A DNA stretch of 64,000 nt from Rhizopus arrhizus. Lineage: Eukaryota; Mucoromycota; Mucoromycetes; Mucorales; Rhizopodaceae. The stretch is taken from assembly GCA_024220505.1 (NCBI GenBank), contig JAKZZE010000005.1, positions 1,510,501 through 1,574,500 of the forward strand. The letters are read 5' to 3'. A program made the translations under genes and the position numbers. The number at the start of each line of letters is the position of its first letter. The first letter of the stretch is position 1. Positions 39,572-51,900 of this stretch are shown piece by piece. The notes under the pieces are model-generated. The model saw only the letters and a list, made by a program, of their open reading frames with translations. It made no database searches and was not told where the DNA came from.

Positions 39572-40679
39572 TCATCTTAATTTACTGGCAAGCTTTGTAT
39601 TTTTTAAAGCTTTTTTCAAATCATATTCTTTCAACGTGATTTTAGCCATTTTGTTTGCTCGCAATTTTTTCTGCTTCCCAATATATGACTCAATTCCGAT
39701 AGCTAAGAGTACATCTTTTTTTTTAGAAATTATCATTATGTATGTATGTTTGTTGTGTACCTGTAAAGACAAGTCCAACACCAACCCACTGACCAAGATT
39801 CAGTGTATGATTAAACCAAAAGACACTAAGCAGCATTGTAAAAAGCTTACGAGTCACTGTAACGGTGACTAGATGAAGACTTCCATAGCGTTGAAGGGTA
39901 TAAAAGATAAAGCATTGGCCGATTGCGCCACAGAGGCCAAACAAGAGAACATCTCGAATCACAGCTGGATGTTGTTGAAAAAATAAAAATGCTTGTTGTA
40001 ATTCGTCGTTAAATGGATACAGGATAAGGTATAAACTAGATAGGATGGAGCTTAAGGAATTCATATAAAACATCATATGCTGACCGCCAACAAGATGCTT
40101 ATATTTCGTAAAGATTTGATCCTGCGTTGCATTCGTAAGTCCATCGATCGTCAAGTTCATGCCAAGCGAAAATAAGCCCCAAGCTGAACTTGTCGTGGCA
40201 ACCTTTTTTGAAAGGCTGACTTCATGATAGAGTATAAACATAGATACGCCTGCAGTTACTAAAGCAACATAAAGATATTTATGCCAATCAAACTTGCGTC
40301 GATAAACAAGGACATTCATCAAAAGGACCGGGACAAGTTTACATGTTTTTCCAAGAATTATAATTGGATAATCAATATGTTTTAGTGAAGCGTACCCAAA
40401 CGATGATCCAATACAATGAAAGAATGCGACTTGTGCATATCTAAAGTAGAGGCTCCGTGGGTTTTCTTTCATGTTGAGGCTTTTACCACTAATTTTCAAA
40501 TAGATAAAGGCGATAAATGTAGCTATTAATGATTGTATAAGATTGAGAACAATAAAATGTTTAAATTTCTTCGATGATTGTGCGTCTCCATAAGGTTTTG
40601 TACTAATACGTTCTTGAATCACTCCACAAGTCAAGAAGCATGCATATATTCCAATAACACACAATGCAAAACGAAGCAT
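39572..40679 (-). CDS. HUT1: UDP-galactose/nucleotide-sugar transporter, HUT1/SLC35B1 type
   Basis: ER multi-pass transporter of the drug/metabolite superfamily. Exons 40679-39761 and 39702-39572 encode 349 aa with about ten hydrophobic segments. Family landmarks are GIYACFLTCGVIQERI in TM1, FGYASLKHIDYPIIILGKTCKLVPVLLM, GLTNATQDQIF, GLCGAIGQCFIFYTL and the TVTVTRKLFTMLLSVFWFNH motif near the end. The spliced C-terminal exon supplies GAIGIESYIGKQKKLRANKM and a lysine-rich tail (KKALKNTKLASKLR) that may serve ER retention. The gene starts a few kb right of the inverted-repeat element and is intact. Confidence 0.9.
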
Positions 40680-41259
40680 GTCAATAAAGAGATGAAAAGA
40701 TGTAAAAAAAAAAAATTAATTAAAAAAGATAATTAAACAGTGCATTAACGTGACTGATTAACGTGCACCATTATCTATTCTTAGTGAATAACTATCTTGT
40801 AATATATATTCTTGCCACATTATTCCTCAAAAATCACATTATATTTATCGTTTGATGATAAACAAGACATAAGGAGTAGTATGAAAGCTATTCAATTAAT
40901 GTAGCAGACTTAGTACTCATAACTGGAAGCTATGAATCTAACCGGCCAGTTTATATATGTGCAATGCTACTTGCATTATCAATGGTTAAGCGCATTTCCG
41001 GCTAAATTAGCCGATATTATCCGAATGCGCTGTATCTGTTACAGAACTACAAACAATTAGAATATGTCTTAGACAAAACATCTTTACTCGACAATAACCA
41101 GTAGAATTACACGTAAGCGGCCCAAGAATAATCAAGAACATTCATCTTTACTGGTCTTGTTTTTCTACAAAAGCAAATCAATTGGCTTTTTCTTCTTTTC
41201 ATGAATCCCTTTAGTCATATACTTTGGTGACCAAGAAAGTCCTAATTCAAATAGTCTCC

Positions 41260-42565: not shown

Positions 42566-42679
42566 GAGTAAAAAAAAACGAAGTTTTGTATTTTTTTTTT
42601 TTTCACGATTTTTTATTTTTATTTTTTAGACTAATTAAAATATTTTTTATGAATGAGAATTGTAATGTTTATATGAATA

Positions 42680-42702
42680 CAGTGGGGCTGGTAAATTTTG
42701 TC
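42680..42702 (+). repeat. Terminal inverted repeat, left (3' of Fanzor)
   Basis: CAGTG-GGGCTGGTAAATTTTGTC, next to the TA at 42678-42679. It pairs with 47813-47835 and shares GGTAAATTTTGTC with another mariner-type end at 54477. Confidence 0.8.
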
Positions 42703-42909
42703 GGTTTAAAGAAAATAAACTTCGTTTAGCAAAAAACAAATGTTTCCAGAAAAATAAATGTCACTAACCTAAATGAAAATTTTGTTTAGTACATTTATTG
42801 TTGTCGCTTTGTACTTGTTTTATTGCAATACCTGTATTAAATGGCCAAGGCGATAACCTTGGTGGTGAATTTTTTGTGACTTTCCTACTTTTGTTCTACT
42901 TAAAGATGA
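42680..42909 (-). ncRNA. Candidate Fanzor guide (omega) RNA region
   Basis: About 230 nt between the Fanzor stop codon and the element end on the Fanzor strand, with no open frame. In TnpB and Fanzor systems the guide RNA scaffold derives from the element end 3' of the nuclease gene, and the guide from the DNA just outside. Placement here is by analogy; I have not identified a specific fold. Confidence 0.35.
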
Positions 42910-45897
42910 TCAGTCTAAAGGATATTTTCTGGTGAAAAGGTTAGGGCGTTTGCCAGTCTTTCTCAAACTATTTAGGATCTTGAGAAAATTCAACACGGCT
43001 GCTTGATCGCGATTCCAAAGTCTTCTTTTTGTACCTGTGGTTTGTTGTTTAAGGCATGAGAGGCTCTTACACCTAGTACTGCATTAGTTATCAAGAGTTA
43101 TTCTAGTTTATTTTTCCCTTTGGATTACCTCAGCAAACCATTACATAGCACATCTGGCTTCTTTTTCCGTTGGTAAGGGCGAGGATTTGGCACGGTTTTG
43201 AATTTTTCTAAGTCATTTTCACAGGTTGGACAATAGGAAGATGTTTTGTATTCATTGATTAAGTAGACAACAAACCCATTCTTCTTTAACATCCTGATTA
43301 ACCCCTTGCTTCTTGTCGGTTCTTGATGCTTGACATTAGGGGCGGACCAATCTCCAAAAACTAAGACAGCATCTTGACCAAACTTTGCTTTTAAGTTACG
43401 CACTAGTTTTTGATCATTCTGGTCAAAGAAAAGTTTACTTGAAAATTTTAATTTTCGAAAAGGCAAAAGTTGTAGCTTTTCTAATGCTGTACTGATAGTC
43501 TTTTTGTAATTGCTTTGCTGTGGTCGTCTACACATCTCTTTTGCCAGCTCTAGAACTTTGCTTTTCTCACTATCATCTAGTCTTTCTGAAATATGCTTTT
43601 GTTGTAGCATTGTTTGTAGGTAGATGGTATACAGTTGGGTCTTTACAGAGCTATCAGTAGAGTAATTCTCAGGTTGAGGGAAAAAACCACGGATTCTTGC
43701 TATGAACAGATTTCCATAATACAAATTACATTTTTGATCGACTCGAAAGTCAAATTCGGATTCAGGGAAATATGTTTCTTTAGAATTTGTTGTCTCGTTT
43801 TCATAATATTCGTACAAGGTGTTTTTTACTGATGCTCTTGTTTTAATGTACTGTACAAACTTTTTCAAGTCTACAGAGTTGGATTCAGATCTAGAAAGGA
43901 TTGCTTCGGCTTTCTGGACCACAAAAGGTTGAGTACGCTTTCTTAAATATCTGAAGTGCCTTGAACATTGTGAGCGGTTGTTCTTGGTAAATATAAGTGT
44001 TCGTTTTTCTTCGATAGCGCTGGTTTCTTTCATGCAGTACATCAAGTCCCGCCTTCCAGGGTCTATCAAGACACACTTGCCTTCAGTGCTCTTTAAGTCG
44101 GCTTGACCTAATCCTTCAATATGTTTTGTTTGATTACCGTCCACTTTCTTTTCAGTGTTGGGTTTAGGCGACTTTTTGCTTGTATCAGTGTTTTGCTTTA
44201 TTATGGAGACACCGACTCCATCGGTTTCGAGAGTTCCTTGGAACCGCAAAGTCTTTTGAAATCCTTGATGCTTGAACGCCTTTTTATTTAAGTCTACGAC
44301 GGCACCCCATGTCTCAAACTTGCTTCCTGTTTTTGGATTCTTTTTGCTCTTGAGAACATGGTGATGGATTATTTTGCTATCCAACGTCATGTAGCAAGGA
44401 ATAAAGGTGGTGCGTAGCGGGAAACAAGCAAACTGTTTCATCTGTTCAGCTTCAGACAATTCGGCAAGTCTGAAGAAGGCTTTAAAATGGTTTTTTGGAC
44501 TAGCCATAATGTCATAGTAAATTGAGTTCTTTTGAAAGGTGTAGTCCTCTGGGTAGCTTGAGAGAAAGCCATTTAATTGTGTTCTTGATTGATCATCTAA
44601 AAGACCAACTTCAGGCATTTCTTTTTTTGCGATGGCAAGCTTCACCTTATTGCAAGGTCCATAAATCTTCTTTCGGATAGCTTCTTTTATCGCTTTACTA
44701 CTAGACTTGTTTGCTTGCATTTCTCCTCTGAGACTCTCTGTCTTTTCCTTCTTTTTAAATAACTTGTTTATCAAACCACGCAGCCTATTTCCAAAATGAG
44801 CTTTGATGTTATTATAGTAGGCCGTTTGGATCTTCGTACACTCGTACAAGGCTATTTGCTGAGCATATGGTAAGTTTTGAGGAGTATAACCAGCGTTTTC
44901 AAAGTAAGCTCCTTTATATCTTGATATCAATCGCCTATAGTTTTTGGTTGTATCCTTCAGCCTTGAGCTATTTCCACCCTTTGAGAGAATAAGACTCAGA
45001 AAAACTTCAACAAAGAAATTCCTTGTCACAAAGTTGTTCAGCGCAAAATTTTCATTTGCTGCCAGTTCTTGTAAATATATGTACTTTGTGAAGGCAAAGG
45101 TATGTGTAACTAGTAAGTTGGTAGTATGAACCAAATCATACAATGGCTGTAAATATGCTGGTTTCCAAATATTTTTTACAGTCGTTTTAATTGTCATCAC
45201 ACGCTTGCTTATCTTCTTAGGGCCTTCTTTAATGTCACTTGCCTTGTCAACAGTCACAGGGCAAAAACTTGACTTGACAGAAGTTGCAGCTGAATTGAAA
45301 ACAGTTGGAACAGGTTTACTAGGCTTGAGGGAAGTTAGACTTGTTTTAGAAGCAGTTGTGCTTGACTCCACAGCAGCAGAAGTTAATTTGGTGATACGAA
45401 AATCAGACTTGGTTGATTCACTCAAAAAGGGTCTTTTGACGACAGGCGCATCAAAATCGTCACTGCTATATTCAAGATCATAGTCATCAAGAGTGATCTT
45501 ATTGAACATGATAGTTTCATCTGTTGTAGAGATACCAGTACTACTTGTAGTAGTAACTTCAGAATCTGTAGCTTTTCCTTTGCCTTTGAGCCTCTTTTGT
45601 AATCCACTCTGTGGAGTATTTTCCCTACCTATGATGGAGTTTCATACGTTAAACTAGCTGTTTACCTACATCAAGCTTGACAATGCAACTTACTTTTTCT
45701 TTTTCTAGCTGTTACAACGGGTTGGAAGTCGTCGTCTGAGTTGTCTTCTACATATAGTTCAAATGAGTCTATAATAGTATCAATTTTGTGGTCAGTGACA
45801 TTTCGATCCATTATTAGATATGGAGCCTACCATTTTCGCTCTTAGATGGCTTCTTTTGGTTTGAAGGGAATAAAGAATCCTTTTGCTTTCCTTTCAT
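42910..45897 (-). CDS. Fanzor, eukaryotic TnpB-like RNA-guided nuclease
   Basis: Eukaryotic relative of IS200/IS605 TnpB and Cas12. Exons in transcript order: 45897-45831, 45768-45694, 45628-43129, 43078-42910; 936 aa. The N-terminal about 190 residues are Ser/Thr/Lys-rich and disordered. A helical region follows, then the split RuvC: VLIDPGRRDLMYCM (RuvC-I, Asp about 570), VFGDWSAPNVK, INEYKTSSYCPTC (RuvC-II, Glu about 840, running into the zinc ribbon) and RLWNRDQAAVLNF (RuvC-III, Asp about 905). The last motif is encoded by the final exon, so the long unspliced frame ending at 43125 lacks it. All three catalytic acids and the CPTC...C zinc residues are present. An alternative start is MDRNVTDHK within the first intron. 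The gene lies downstream of, and parallel to, the transposase. Confidence 0.92.
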
Positions 45898-46379
45898 TTT
45901 CTAACGTGTTTTCATGAGTGAAATGTACGAACAAAAAGAAAAAATGTCTTCAGAAATTGATTTAAATGTTAAAAGGAAATACTCCCATCCCATTTATATA
46001 GATTTATTCAAACACAGCTACAACAGGATAATAGCAATGTGCCTACAATGAGCTTATACTATGTAGTAACTTGCAATAGAAGATACTTGTTTTCTAGATT
46101 CACATAGAATAGTAGTTACACATAGTAGGTAGGACTCGAGAAGTTATTAGCGTCTGAATGTGTCAAGTTCTTTATGTTTTTTCATCAAACCTCAATGATA
46201 AATATGTTAAGAACATACCTGATGATCATAAAATGTTGGAACGTCATCTTGTAATGGCACTGCATAATGATGATATATTCACTGATCAAAATATCCATTA
46301 AAAGTCCTTTGCTGAGACCAATAAAACTGTTTTAAATCATATCAATTCTCGCAAGGTTTATATTCTAAAAAGATATGGT

Positions 46380-47598
46380 GTTATGAAAATATCATAGTAT
46401 GATTTTAAAAGCATGTTCACATGAGAGGCCATAAAGAATTTGATTATAATCATCAGCACTTCAATTCAATAAGTTTTCATTTAACGATGTTTGAGCTTTC
46501 CTTTAACTATAGCCTAAAACTGCTCAATTGGGTTGAGCTCTGATGAACAAGGAGGTAAGTGCATTACTCTATAACCTCTACTGTCAATTTTTCTTATCAT
46601 TGGATGAGACTTATGAATAGTACAGTAATCCATTACAAGATATCTACCCATAAGACTTTCGTCTATGTCCATGATATCAAGAAGCTCGTTTATAAATCTT
46701 ACAAAGTGGGCAGTAGTTGTATATTTTGCTACTGGCTTGTTGTTCTCGATGGCAGTACTCTTCTCCACATCAGCGTACTCTATAGTAGGTTCTTCAATAA
46801 TCATGTCGCCTGCTCTTTGCCTCCTGCAAGCTTTTTTTTTTTTTTTTTTGGCTGTCTTCAATGCAGCCTCATCAATAAAAACGCAGTTCTTAGTGTAACC
46901 CAGATCCGAGCCTTTCCACTTCATGAACCACTCGTATCTCGTTTGCAAGTTATTGTCAGAGTTTCTTGTCATAGGATCGAAGGTTGTCTTCTTTATTGAA
47001 ATGAACTTGTTATTTCTCAAGTGGTGTTTCATTTGAGGCTTTGAAATCTTTAAGTCCTCAAACTGCGATTTCAGAGAAACAATAATATCATTAGCACAAA
47101 GTTGTGAGCCTTTTTCTACTATTTGTTGAATGTGCTGCTCATGCTCAGGAGTCAGTGAGTTGGGTCGGCCGGGATTTCTTTGCAACTTTTTGTAAGCTAC
47201 CTTCCCAGTTTCTTGATAGTGTTCCCACCAGCGCATAGCAGTACGAGGATTAATTCCAAGATCCTTTGCATGCAAAGTCACTTTTCCTCTTTCCGTAAGA
47301 CCCTCGATCATTCAGTCAATAAATATCTCTCTGGTTTGGTCGTCGTAGTCTTTGTAGACGCTGCTTTCTTGACCACTTTTATAGTCTTTTTTGTTGAATC
47401 TTTTGCAGTAGTTTCTTTCTCTGCTGGTTTGAGACTCAGATAGGACTTTTGGCTCGTTATGGTTTCAAGTATTACGTTTGGATCACTGATTTCGGTTAAC
47501 ACACCTTCCATTGGGTCGAAGACTCTCTCTCCATCCTTATTGTAGGCATTATTGTGTTCGTCTTCATAAAAAAATGTATTTTTTGTCATGTTATTCAT
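46380..47598 (-). pseudogene. Broken Tc1/mariner (IS630-type) transposase
   Basis: DDE transposase of the same element as Fanzor. The N-terminal part runs 47598-47308 (MNNMTKNTFFYEDEHNNAYN...RYLLTE, then stop); the remainder continues from 47311 in another frame. The HTH segment is LGINPRTAMRWWEHYQE, followed by CVFIDEAALK (first Asp), YLVMDYCTIHKS (second Asp) and NPIEQF (Glu), with 34 residues between the second Asp and the Glu (DD34E). Two lesions are visible: a single-base frameshift near 47305-47311, and a TAG where Trp is expected directly after NPIEQF (46511-46513). Readable C-terminal debris (AIVKGKLKHR, YGLSCEHAFKII) continues to about 46380. A lysine run (TAKKKKKKAC) sits in the catalytic domain. 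Confidence 0.85.
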
Positions 47599-47812
47599 TT
47601 GTTAGAGCGAAGGGAAAGAAATAAAGCCTTTACATCATAGCTGACAATAATCCCTCAGTAACCCAATTTGACTCGGCCCAAAAAGACAAAGTAAAGTTTT
47701 AAGAGCGACAATTATTTGCTAGCAAACAGCTAAACATTTATCAGGTAGTGCCGTTTATTTTTAGGTAACCGCCATTTATTTTTCGGAAGTTGCCGTTTAT
47801 TTTTTCAGAATG

Positions 47813-47835
47813 GACGAAATTTACTAGTCGCACTG
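47813..47835 (-). repeat. Terminal inverted repeat, right (5' of transposase)
   Basis: Read on the minus strand: CAGTGCGACTAGTAAATTTC and onward, next to TA at 47836-47837. Partner of 42680-42702. Confidence 0.8.
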
Positions 47836-47837
47836 TA

Positions 47838-48037
47838 TAAAGGTGATAAAGCTGTATTAGGCTGTGAAGGGGCAAAGCCCCCTAGCGAAGTAGTCAAAGT
47901 TCTTTCTGCTAGTTTAGTCTCTCGTCTGGCGACACTAGTTCAAATCTCCATGGCCGTTTTTCTGTGTTTGTTTGTGGGTTTAAGCCCTGTTATTAAAATG
48001 TTTCTTATGATGACCAGCTAAATATGCGGCATCCGAA
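47838..48037. other. Short unique spacer between mariner element and LINE array
   Basis: About 200 nt with no gene. A stem-like GGGGCAAAGCCCC and a GTTCAAATC string give it a faint tRNA look, but the arms do not fold as a tRNA. Confidence 0.4.
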
Positions 48038-48136
48038 TAAAATCCTTATACGATTAAAGAATATTTTATTTATCTGAGAATTAAAATAACCCAATTGAGC
48101 ACATAATAATGGAAATTATTGTATTGCCCGGGTCAG
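48038..48136 (-). mobile_element. LINE fragment, 3' end only
   Basis: About 99 bp identical over most of its length to the 3' end of the near-full-length element at 48776. On the minus strand it ends ...TTTAATCGTATAAGGATTTTA. Its 5' edge abuts the 3' end of the next copy without spacer. Confidence 0.75.
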
Positions 48137-48775
48137 TAAAATCCTTATACGATTAAAGAATAATTTTTTATTTGTAAAAATTTTAAAACCCAAAATGAGC
48201 ACATAATATTTGACATATTGTATTGCCCGGGCCAGTTCAAAGAAGTGTTAGAGAAACTAAAAACCTTTTTGATAGCCAAAAAGTAAAAAGGATAGAGAAG
48301 GGAAGATGGTAGGAAGATGTAATCAATACATTTAAGAGTTAGAGAATAACCAAGATAATAATTTTTGGCCAAGAGGGGGAACATCGGGAGAGATTTGATC
48401 GTGATGCAAATAATCTAGTTCATGTAAAATTTGACAGATAATTGGCCAACGAATAGACCATGCAATATGCTTTGAGCGGTTTTTGTCGGTTGGTTTCTTT
48501 CTGGAAATGGGCAGCTCGTTTAAGAAAAATGACAGAGGGTCAGAGATAGATTGTGGCATTTGCAGACGTCGATGCATATGAAGGCATTCAATGGCATGAG
48601 TCCTTGTTAGTAGATCAAATGGGTGGTAGATACACGGTTTGGGGAGGCCACCAGGAAGCCAACCGAGACGCCAACGGAGTAAGCGACTACGTTCAACGGG
48701 GGTCATTGGGAGCCATAGTATAGGATCAACCTTTCGGTCAACACGACAGGCAGATAAAAGGACAGAGTTAGTGTG
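48137..48775 (-). mobile_element. 5'-truncated LINE copy
   Basis: About 640 bp. It encodes the C-terminal part of the LINE ORF2 (stop at 48332), including WLPMTPVERSRLLRWRLGWL, PGGLPKPCIYHP with the C-H-type motif LLTRTHAIECLHMH, and ends with the family 3' UTR. It joins its neighbours directly on both sides. Confidence 0.8.
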
Positions 48776-48977
48776 TAAAATCCTTATACGATTAAAGAAT
48801 ATTTTATTTATCTGAGAATTAAAATAACCCAATTGAGCACATAATAATGGAAATTATTGTATTGCCCGGGTCAGATCATGAGATGGTTAAAGAGCTAAAA
48901 AACCTTTTTGATAGGCAAAAAGGGAAAAAGGATAAAGATGGGAAGATGAAGAAGATACAGTAACAAGCGATACGAGA

Positions 48978-51900
48978 TTAATTAGAGCTGAACCAATGCA
49001 ATAGTTTAGTACCCAGAGGTGGAATTTCAGGAGCAGTTTTGTCATGGCGGAGGTAGTCAAGTTCATGCAGGATTTGGCAAATGATTGGCCATCGAATAAA
49101 CCACGCTGAATATTTTGATCGACGTTGTATAGTAGGTTTCTTCCTTGAAGTAGGCAGGAGATTGAGGAGATATGATAAAGGGTCAGAGATAGTGCTTGGC
49201 ATAAGAAGGCGATGATGCATATTTAGACAGGTAATAGCATGCGATCGGGTGAGCAGGTCATGAGGGTGGTAGATACATGGTTTGGGACGGCCACCAGGCA
49301 ACCAGCCCATACGCCAACGAATTAATCGGCTACGTTCAATGTATGACATCGGTAGCCAGAGGATGGGATCCACGACTAATTGAGGACGGCAGGCGGAGAG
49401 AAGGATAGAGTTAGTGTCTGCACGGCGGTTTTCAAAAGATTCTTGTAGATAATCTTTACGAATTGCTTTGAACTTGCGTCGATCAAGTTGATCAGGATCG
49501 GTTTCAGCGCAGAGCCGCCATAGAGGGGAAGTAGTGAGCTTGTACCATTGTGAGTGGCTTGTTGATGTTCGAATGTAAGGAAGTAGTCTAAACATAAGAG
49601 TATCATCAGGTGCATCAATAGTTCGAAGCAAGAATTTGGCTTGTAAGATGTGGATACGCTCTTTCATTGTTGGTTGATTTACTAGGTGTAGCATGACCTT
49701 GATGGACGAGCGTGAAGTACCCCCAAATATTCGACGTAGACATTGGTTTTGGCAAGATTCTATCTTCTGAAGTTCCCTGCATTTCACCGCACTGATGGCT
49801 AGACCGTATTCTAGTTGTGGACGAACAATTTGAGAATAAAACCGCGTGGAGGTGAGCTTCTCAAAACCAGTAGAGTTCACACCAATGGCTGTCATTTGGT
49901 TCATGGTCTTCAGTGCTTTATTGATATTATTTTGGATAAGTTCCTTTGTGTTAAGGTATCCTCCAGGGCTGATAGGAATACCTAGGTAGCTGAATGAAAC
50001 TTGACGTGGAAGTGTAATCCCATAGAGAGCATAGTCTTGAGTGTCAGAGGAGGGGGACAGTATTGCGCATTTGAGGGGGTTCCAACGGAAACCTAGTTGA
50101 TGGCTATAGTCTTCACATTTTTGTAGAAGCGTCGTTAGATGTGGAGGTGACGCTATTAGTACCACGTCATCAGCGTACAGGAGACAGTTGATTGATAAAG
50201 TAAATTCAATGGGATTAGTCTGAGAACCATCAGCAAGGGGGTGATCTCGTAGAAGATTTGGCAATTGGTTAATGTAGATTGAGTATAGGAAAGGAGACAG
50301 AATCGAACCCTGCAACACACCAGTAGCGGGTGAGAATCGGGAAGATTTAGCATTCCCCAGGAGAACTTCAATCTGGACATCATTAAAAAGGTTTTTAAGC
50401 AAGTTGAGTAGCGCCGGATCAAGGCTTTGCTCTAAAGCTTGCCACACATGACAGCGGTCAACAGTATCATAGGCAGCTTTAATGTCTAAGAACGCCAGAG
50501 TTGGAGTGACCTTATGGTGCTTGCGTAGAATAGAACATATTTCAACGAGGGACAGTGCTTGATCAAGTGTACTACGGGCTACACGGAAACCGCCCTGTGC
50601 AATATCAAGTGTAGGGCTTTGATCGACTAGTTCAGGATATAGACATTTTTCTATGATTCTTCTGAAAATAGAGGTTAAGCTAATCGGACGGAAGTTTCCT
50701 GGATCAGTTACCGGGCCTTTTTTATATATGGGAAGAACCTGAGCGACTCTCCATGACAGAGGGGTGTAGCTCCATCGCCAGCAAAGTTGAAACAGGTACA
50801 CAAGAATTGGTGTTAAGCGATCAGTGATAGGTATAATTGTTTCTATAGTAAGATGGTCTACACCGGGTGCTTTCCGTCGGGGTAGGTGTGCAATGGCATC
50901 ATTAACTGTTTCGATAGTAAAAGGACATGTGTTTGTATCAAATGGTTCATTCTGGTTGACGGATGGCGTCGATTCAGTAAGTTAGATATTAAATCACCAG
51001 CAAAAGTGCGCTGAAGGTGTTGCGCCATTACTTCAGCAGCACGCTGTGGCCCCTCTATATGAGAGAAGGTAGGCTTGAGAGTTCTGTTTTTTCTGATACG
51101 ACTGAATTTAGCGATCGCCTTGGAGTAGTTTCCCTGGGACATTTGGTCACAGAAGCAGCGCCAAGTTTCGCGACGTCTCTTTAGAATGAGTTGACGTAAT
51201 TTCGCTTGAGCTTCCTGATGTGCTACCCATAATCGTAGTGCATTGAAACCATGTGCTTTCCTCCACTTTTTGTAATAATATTCTTTACGGTTAAAGGCGG
51301 CTGTCATTTCAGTTGTCCAAAAATCCTTAAGCCATTCATCCGTTGGCGGTGAGCGTCTACCACAAATCTTATCCAGGCTGTCGTAAATAGTGTCACATAG
51401 TTGCTGGTGTATTGAATCAATGTATTGACAAGCCTCAGTTCTATTAGGGAAAGAAAGTGATGACTGGTGGGGTAGTATTATCTGTAAATTTTCAGTGAAT
51501 ACTTCTTTGTAAGAGTTTCTGAAACGTGGATGTTTGAGTTTTCCAATATTCCAGGTAACGCGTTGTGGAGGCAAATGGACTTGGAGATTAGAGGGCAAGT
51601 CAAATGACATTGACATGAACTTGTGGTTTGAATTGAGAGAAAGATCATGCCTTATGTGTATAGATGGCGAGATCAATTCATTATTGCTGAGAAAAAAGTC
51701 AATGATGCTTGTATCCTGAAATGTATACGAGGTAGGTTGTCCATGTGTAAGACGTTGATTCCAGAGTATAAGATTATGGGAGCACATCCAGTTGTAGAAA
51801 ATTCGCCCTCGTGGGTCTATTCGAGTGTCGCCTATGTAAGATCCAAGGCGAGCATTAAAATCACCGCATAATATAGTATTGGACGTATTAGCGTATTGCA

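Follow-up and report, generated by a model that had tools for sequence, protein, structure and literature searches.

Rhizopus arrhizus carries a family of Tc1/mariner-type transposons with CAGTG termini and a Fanzor1 nuclease gene, one copy of which lies at positions 42680-47835 of a 64,000-nucleotide stretch of contig JAKZZE010000005.1 (assembly GCA_024220505.1; the whole stretch is referred to as the window, and features of the element are listed in Table 1). An earlier note on this DNA had proposed that the nuclease could promote retention of the element, and this proposal gains support, short of proof, from a polar TATA motif beside the insertions, from scars in which a tail of target adjoins a shortened right end, and from purifying selection on the Fanzor gene. 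On the strength of these genomic traces, we consider it probable that Fanzor favours the retention or homing of the element that carries it, in that TATA and the target would be recognised, the empty allele cut and the element copied in.

Table 1 Features of the Fanzor1-bearing element (positions in the window)
Feature	Position	Strand	Basis or detail
Predicted guide source: flank that would be reached by transcription through the left end, target-site duplication (TSD) TA plus ~14 nt	42664..42679	-	Inference, by analogy with SpuFz1
TA TSD, left (guide) side	42678..42679	.	TA here in 44/46 left-end flanks
Left-end terminal inverted repeat (TIR) CAGTGGGGCTGGTAAATTTTGTC, downstream of the Fanzor gene	42680..42702	+	Copy comparison
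Candidate omegaRNA scaffold (inferred)	42680..42745	-	Conservation of the outer left end
Fanzor1 gene, 3 exons, 926 aa	42910..45811	-	Exons 45811-45694, 45628-43129, 43072-42910
DD34E transposase remnant (helix-turn-helix (HTH), DDE_3), ended by TAG at NPIEQF(W)	46514..47311	-	Domain matches, copy comparison
Transposase N-terminal part, other frame	47308..47601	-	Frame comparison
Right-end TIR, upstream of both genes	47813..47835	-	Copy comparison
TATA adjoining the right end: TSD TA plus preceding TA; predicted Fanzor target-adjacent motif (TAM)	47836..47839	-	Flank comparison

TATA flank, target tails and selection

The four nucleotides adjoining each end were compared in 35 left/right pairs of ends, which are 41 pairs from the host genome minus 6 without a TIR-proximal right end (C4:41, C3:823, C4:345, C10:556, C34:2032 and C37:1717). 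The right-end flank, which is upstream of Fanzor and was read toward the element, was TATA in 29/35 paired copies, the remaining six being TGTA (three), TAAA (two) and TCTA (one), whereas the left-end, guide-side flank of the same copies was TATA in 7/35 (23 discordant pairs versus 1, p = 3e-6), so that the motif adjoins the insertion at the end away from the guide, as retention or homing would have it. The flanks of these pairs and of ten control ends were entered by hand; TATA was scored from in front of the tail in the four copies C2:768, C11:819, C8:304 and C14:396, which are described below, and the pair C39:1888 may join two insertions. A machine count gave TATA at 31/43 right ends and 9/46 left ends (p = 7e-7), with the right-end place of C2:1013 misread by the script; its 43 right ends include six ends of Fanzor-less relatives, one of them with TATA, and without these the count was 30/37. 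Ten weaker right-end-like ends showed TATA in four cases. The TATA beside the right end, together with the free flank past the left end, is what would be expected if the empty site had to carry a TAM.

A target preference of the transposase, with the right end always on the TATA side and no role for Fanzor in the survival of sites, could also produce such a bias. Mariner-like elements often favour AT-rich sites, and TATA is found at 7/22 ends of a second mariner family in the genome, one without Fanzor whose 443-aa transposase frame is open. However, a symmetric preference would give TATA on both sides, which the 7/35 count at the left side contradicts; Fanzor-less relatives with the same TIR have TATA at only 1/10 ends (p = 5e-5) although TA is kept at 9/10; and the internally deleted copies L016 and L023, which keep the left end, still show TATA. 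We therefore regard a transposase preference as unlikely. The ten ends of Fanzor-less relatives, which are the control ends above, include those of L107 and L108, whose interior is unread, and both ends of L075, which are nearer the left-end type; no Fanzor main exon was found by tblastn in the four Fanzor-less relative elements read. Far less likely still is that the flanking TATA is kept because the genes of the element use it as a TATA box: the motif does lie upstream of both genes, but it is kept in L016 and L023 although their genes are largely deleted, and its position is fixed to the base beside the TSD.

The start of the right-end TIR is in place in 30/35 pairs, a few of them with substitutions and C21:693 altered more. 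Three copies with a shortened right end have target sequence from the guide side, beyond the left end, directly after TATA: 8-9 nt at C2:768 (L012), 8 nt at C11:819 (L021) and 9 nt at C8:304 (L027). At the latter two the true target was confirmed by a second target copy behind a long interspersed nuclear element (LINE), against which the C8:304 tail extends to 11 nt. Two more copies are probable target-tail scars by sequence match, C14:396 with 5 nt and C28:264 with 9/10 nt and TAAA in place of TATA. A match of at least 8 nt right after TA was found in 3/30 true pairs versus 0/870 mismatched pairs, and no shortened left end was seen among the 40 scored of 75 candidates. The sequence ACAGT at C3:823, outside the 35 pairs, was not counted as a scar, as it may equally represent the TIR letters CAGTG. 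The possibility that TATA is part of the element's right end was rejected, as four scar copies have target directly after it; because TATA and target are unbroken in these four TATA-keeping scars, the motif belongs to the target and not to the element.

These scars fit an empty allele that would have been broken within the region matched by the guide and then repaired by copying the element from the homologue. The tail would lie on the TATA side because homology restores the far side, whereas some target may stay behind at the TATA side. Gap repair after excision was rejected as the source, since the tail lies on the other side of the break that excision would leave.

Several points weigh against retention or homing by Fanzor. 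The main and serious rival for the scars is one-ended transposition, in which the left end alone is joined, the free target strand is extended by ~10 nt and microhomology joins it to a shortened right end, with no nuclease involved. As this process would predict, junctions at the left end are exact, and those at the right end have 3-4 letters in common with that end in C2:768, C11:819 and C14:396 (CTA, GACT and AAAT, respectively); however, tails would be expected at both ends alike, whereas about five were found at right ends and none among 40 left ends, and the polarity of TATA and the selection on Fanzor would be left unexplained. We consider one-ended transposition the less probable source of the tails, although a possible one. 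The sidedness of the scars, five right versus none left, reaches only 0.06 in a sign test, and alteration is generally commoner at right ends, with C4:345 and C10:556 shortened and C21:693 changed without a tail. Matches of 5-6 nt occurred in 16/870 mismatched pairs, and under a looser position rule matches of at least 8 nt occurred in 3/1190 mismatched pairs. The left end of L122 (C34:2032526) lost 9 nt of flank relative to its paralogue L013 (C34:2008660), namely TA and 7 further target bases, which the model does not predict; the flanks of the two copies are otherwise paralogous. A search of the genome's own sequence with the joined flanks of 11 sites and the single flank of a twelfth, L027, gave no junction-spanning match among the 40 scored of 245 candidates, except for the scar copies' own right ends. 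Three candidate omegaRNA stretches folded hardly better than shuffled sequences (z -0.3 to -0.8), and pair counts on 49 left ends gave no clear covariation in the candidate omegaRNA. The TATA count of the second mariner family belongs here as well, as it indicates that the motif is common in this genome.

The two genes of the element differ in the selection acting on them. Private changes were counted against the majority sequence. The five intact Fanzor exons had a ratio of nonsynonymous to synonymous changes (N:S) of 57:32 (neutral expectation 3.77 to 1, p = 0.001), against 73:15 (neutral expectation 4.10 to 1, p = 0.69) in the transposase remnants of those five copies, the difference between the two genes being significant (Fisher p = 0.006); broken Fanzor exons were intermediate (221:81, p = 0.016 versus neutral). 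By these counts, purifying selection is shown to act on Fanzor, whereas the transposase in the same copies is drifting. It is accordingly improbable that Fanzor is an inert hitch-hiker whose open frames are merely young: a hitch-hiker would account for the many broken or partial Fanzor matches and for the copies that have no main exon, but neither the contrast with the transposase of the same copies nor the intermediate position of the broken exons is expected of one.

The element, its copies and its two genes

The borders of the element were set by comparison of copies across the host genome (50.26 Mb, 41 contigs). The sequence CAGTGGGGCTGGTAAATTTT from 42680 and the inverted CAGTGCGACTAGTAAATTTC ending at 47835 are identical at 16/20 bases, and TA lies on both sides, at 42678-42679 and 47836-47837; TIRs and TA duplication are those of a Tc1/mariner element. 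With a left-end query starting at 42681, all 40 matches scored of 75 candidates start at query base 1 or 3, and for the right end 40 places were scored of 88 candidates. The TIR pattern gave 130 matches and the left-end interior pattern 61, with none for the control of either. The same borders with Fanzor inside are found in five further near-complete copies, all at unrelated sites (L010, L011, L012, L014 and L026), and L023, which is internally deleted to the left end, a transposase remnant and the right end, without the Fanzor main exon, has these borders too. Since the borders are common to many copies, they belong to a repeated mobile unit, and the data support 42680-47835 as one such unit carrying Fanzor inside. 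The related inverted ends, the flanking TA and the composite unit described in the earlier note are all borne out in this way, by dozens of copies with common borders and by the five near-complete ones. Among the copies read, none had differing borders, so that none with other borders excluding the gene was met; the search it had proposed for further copies fixed the borders and found Fanzor not always included, as in L023. Several relatives of other build (L074-L077) were also seen, one of which, L074 (C37:1597000-1602850), is a ~5.4-kb element with the same TIRs and inverted arms and without the Fanzor main exon.

The Fanzor protein has the RuvC triad D562, E832 and D895 and a zinc ribbon (CPTC...RCKSLSC) followed by WNRD, and triad and ribbon align through to PpFz1 of Parasitella parasitica; a D-E-D triad with a zinc ribbon followed by RD identifies a Fanzor1. 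The match to PpFz1 scores 1168 bits, with residues 176-922 aligned ungapped, and this ungapped match was used to pick the acceptor of the third exon in the gene model. The triad and zinc ribbon had been recognised before, in a protein given as 936 aa with the triad at about D570, E840 and D905; the length is corrected here to 926 aa, and those residue numbers were 8-10 too high. The nearest proteins are from R. arrhizus (94% identity) and R. delemar (83% identity). The main exon is full length and stop-free at five places among 54 scored of 363 candidates in the host genome, and many other matches are partial or broken. Judged by these features, the protein appears to be an intact-looking RNA-guided DNA cutter. 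A second Fanzor family is represented at C23:648494-650296 (G000) and C2:1447396-1449198, both stop-free and 42% identical over residues 147-619.

Beyond the gene, the outer 40 nt are the best-conserved part of the left end, its two outermost 20-nt blocks being 94% and 92% conserved. L044 (C1:1958672) and L106 (C1:1252233), which lie at different places, have the first 15 nt of the guide-side flank identical and then diverge; in L044 a LINE begins near the point of divergence.

The transposase is encoded on the minus strand, as is Fanzor and as had been noted before. The domains and the DD34E spacing previously described are present, with Pfam matches to DDE_3 (3.6e-11) and HTH domains and 34 residues between the second D and the E as read from the sequence, whereas the gene as it stands is a pseudogene by its reading frames. 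The NPIEQF region is held by 12/17 loci tested. TAG stands at the W in the 11 of them that belong to the family; the twelfth, L020, has TGG there, but its transposase is a related one that lies outside the Fanzor copy. All 10 copies aligned have a stop at codon 266. In the three copies examined (that of the window, L072 and L073) the N-terminal part is out of frame with the core, whereas the relative L077 has both in one frame. The element accordingly lacks the intact transposase of an autonomous one, and movement by its own transposase is unsupported, because the gene is broken here and the stop is common to the 11 family copies read. L010 and L014 have a transposase deletion in common and different flanks, and their Fanzor main exon is open in L010 and nearly so in L014 (an 11-base frameshift). 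Read most simply, these sequences point to a family that spread while its transposase was non-functional; a shortened transposase protein that still works is a possible alternative. A related transposase at L161 (C40:1301900-1304300) keeps the W and 54 further residues, with one in-frame stop elsewhere, and represents a possible kind of trans helper; CAGTG ends were not noticed in the 2.4 kb read around it.

A LINE with an RVT_1 domain (48978-50981; model 48100-51400, minus strand) is also present in the window. In a survey of 126 flank entries, 5′-truncated copies of this LINE were found at 11 left and 8 right ends, separated from the TIR by 9-18 nt and directed outward in 19/19 (copies concerned include L015, L018, L019, L021 and L027), and three further matches lay 265-839 nt from the TIR. 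The spacer is the LINE target duplication in 5/5 copies in which the 3′ end was read, starting at the TIR-border TA or, in one copy, at CA in its place. This LINE apparently uses the border of the transposon or has a preference for it and, because both ends are hit, its insertion there looks independent of Fanzor. A gene for a UAA-family nucleotide-sugar transporter (39723-40715, minus strand) is also located near the element.

Proposed mechanism and relation to known systems

In the mechanism we propose, an RNA read through the left end would carry the flanking target as guide, and the Fanzor complex would recognise 5′-TATA followed by the target, which are contiguous only in the empty allele. 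The empty allele would be cut some nucleotides into the target, and repair from the element-bearing chromosome would copy the element in, so that insertions beside TATA would be retained or spread; imperfect repair would leave a tail of target before a shortened right end. Since the transposase of the element itself looks dead, movement to new sites would probably depend on activity provided in trans. The wider proposition, that homing by a eukaryotic Fanzor is recorded in this family, the nuclease having cut TATA-flanked empty alleles, had the element copied in, left the tails and, through this benefit, been kept intact after the death of the transposase, is put forward tentatively, as somewhat short of an even chance.

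The closest solved relative of this Fanzor is PpFz1 (PDB 9cf0-9cf3; PMC11423790), whose reported TAM, 5′-ATN, fits the TATA seen here. PpFz1 was studied as a protein-RNA complex, and the main text of that report does not contain the word transposase, whereas the present system is known from its sequence. SpuFz1 of Spizellomyces punctatus is described with the TAM CATA, a guide length of 14-15 nt and, upstream of the element's 5′ repeat, a conserved CA (PMC10432273), and the TATA found here resembles its CATA. The Spu-1 element is likewise a multi-copy family with inverted repeats, ghost copies without Fanzor and a CA beside the CATA TAM; according to its description (PMC10432273) no transposase was found between the repeats, whereas a DD34E remnant, TA duplications and repair-like scars are present here. 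In the Fanzor1 system of a Spodoptera frugiperda ascovirus, the guide RNA is reported to run ~15 nt past the TSD, with TIR and TSD predicted within the scaffold (PMC10711439), which is the layout assumed here, although the transposon family differs and our case is drawn from genome data.

Fanzor1 proteins in Mariner elements were reported in 2013 (PMC3627910), and PGv-1, PUl-1 and PUl-4, from other hosts, similarly combine Fanzor1 with a Mariner-like transposase or with Mariner TIRs and TA duplications. The same report lists Rhizopus oryzae with four Fanzor1 families, among which the present family may already be included. The TnpB nuclease of IS200/IS605 elements has been reported to act as a gene drive in plasmids (PMC11870625), with a guide that records the insertion site and a nuclease that cuts element-free molecules and favours element-bearing ones, as proposed here; that system is a bacterial IS200/605 element, whereas ours is eukaryotic, mariner-type and known from genomic traces alone. 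No report of Fanzor homing was found among the titles and abstracts listed from the open-access literature searched. In the account of Saito et al. (2023), the role of Fanzor is called unknown and help to transposon spread is proposed (PMC10432273).

The presence of Fanzor1 in Mariner elements has been known since 2013, and the evidence on its function is the new part of this work. The mechanism predicts TATA as the TAM together with a guide for each copy, and retention or homing becomes a testable idea through the combination of a polar motif, one-ended repair-like scars and selection that acts on the nuclease but not on the transposase. If homing is true, this family of elements would constitute natural evidence for Fanzor function.

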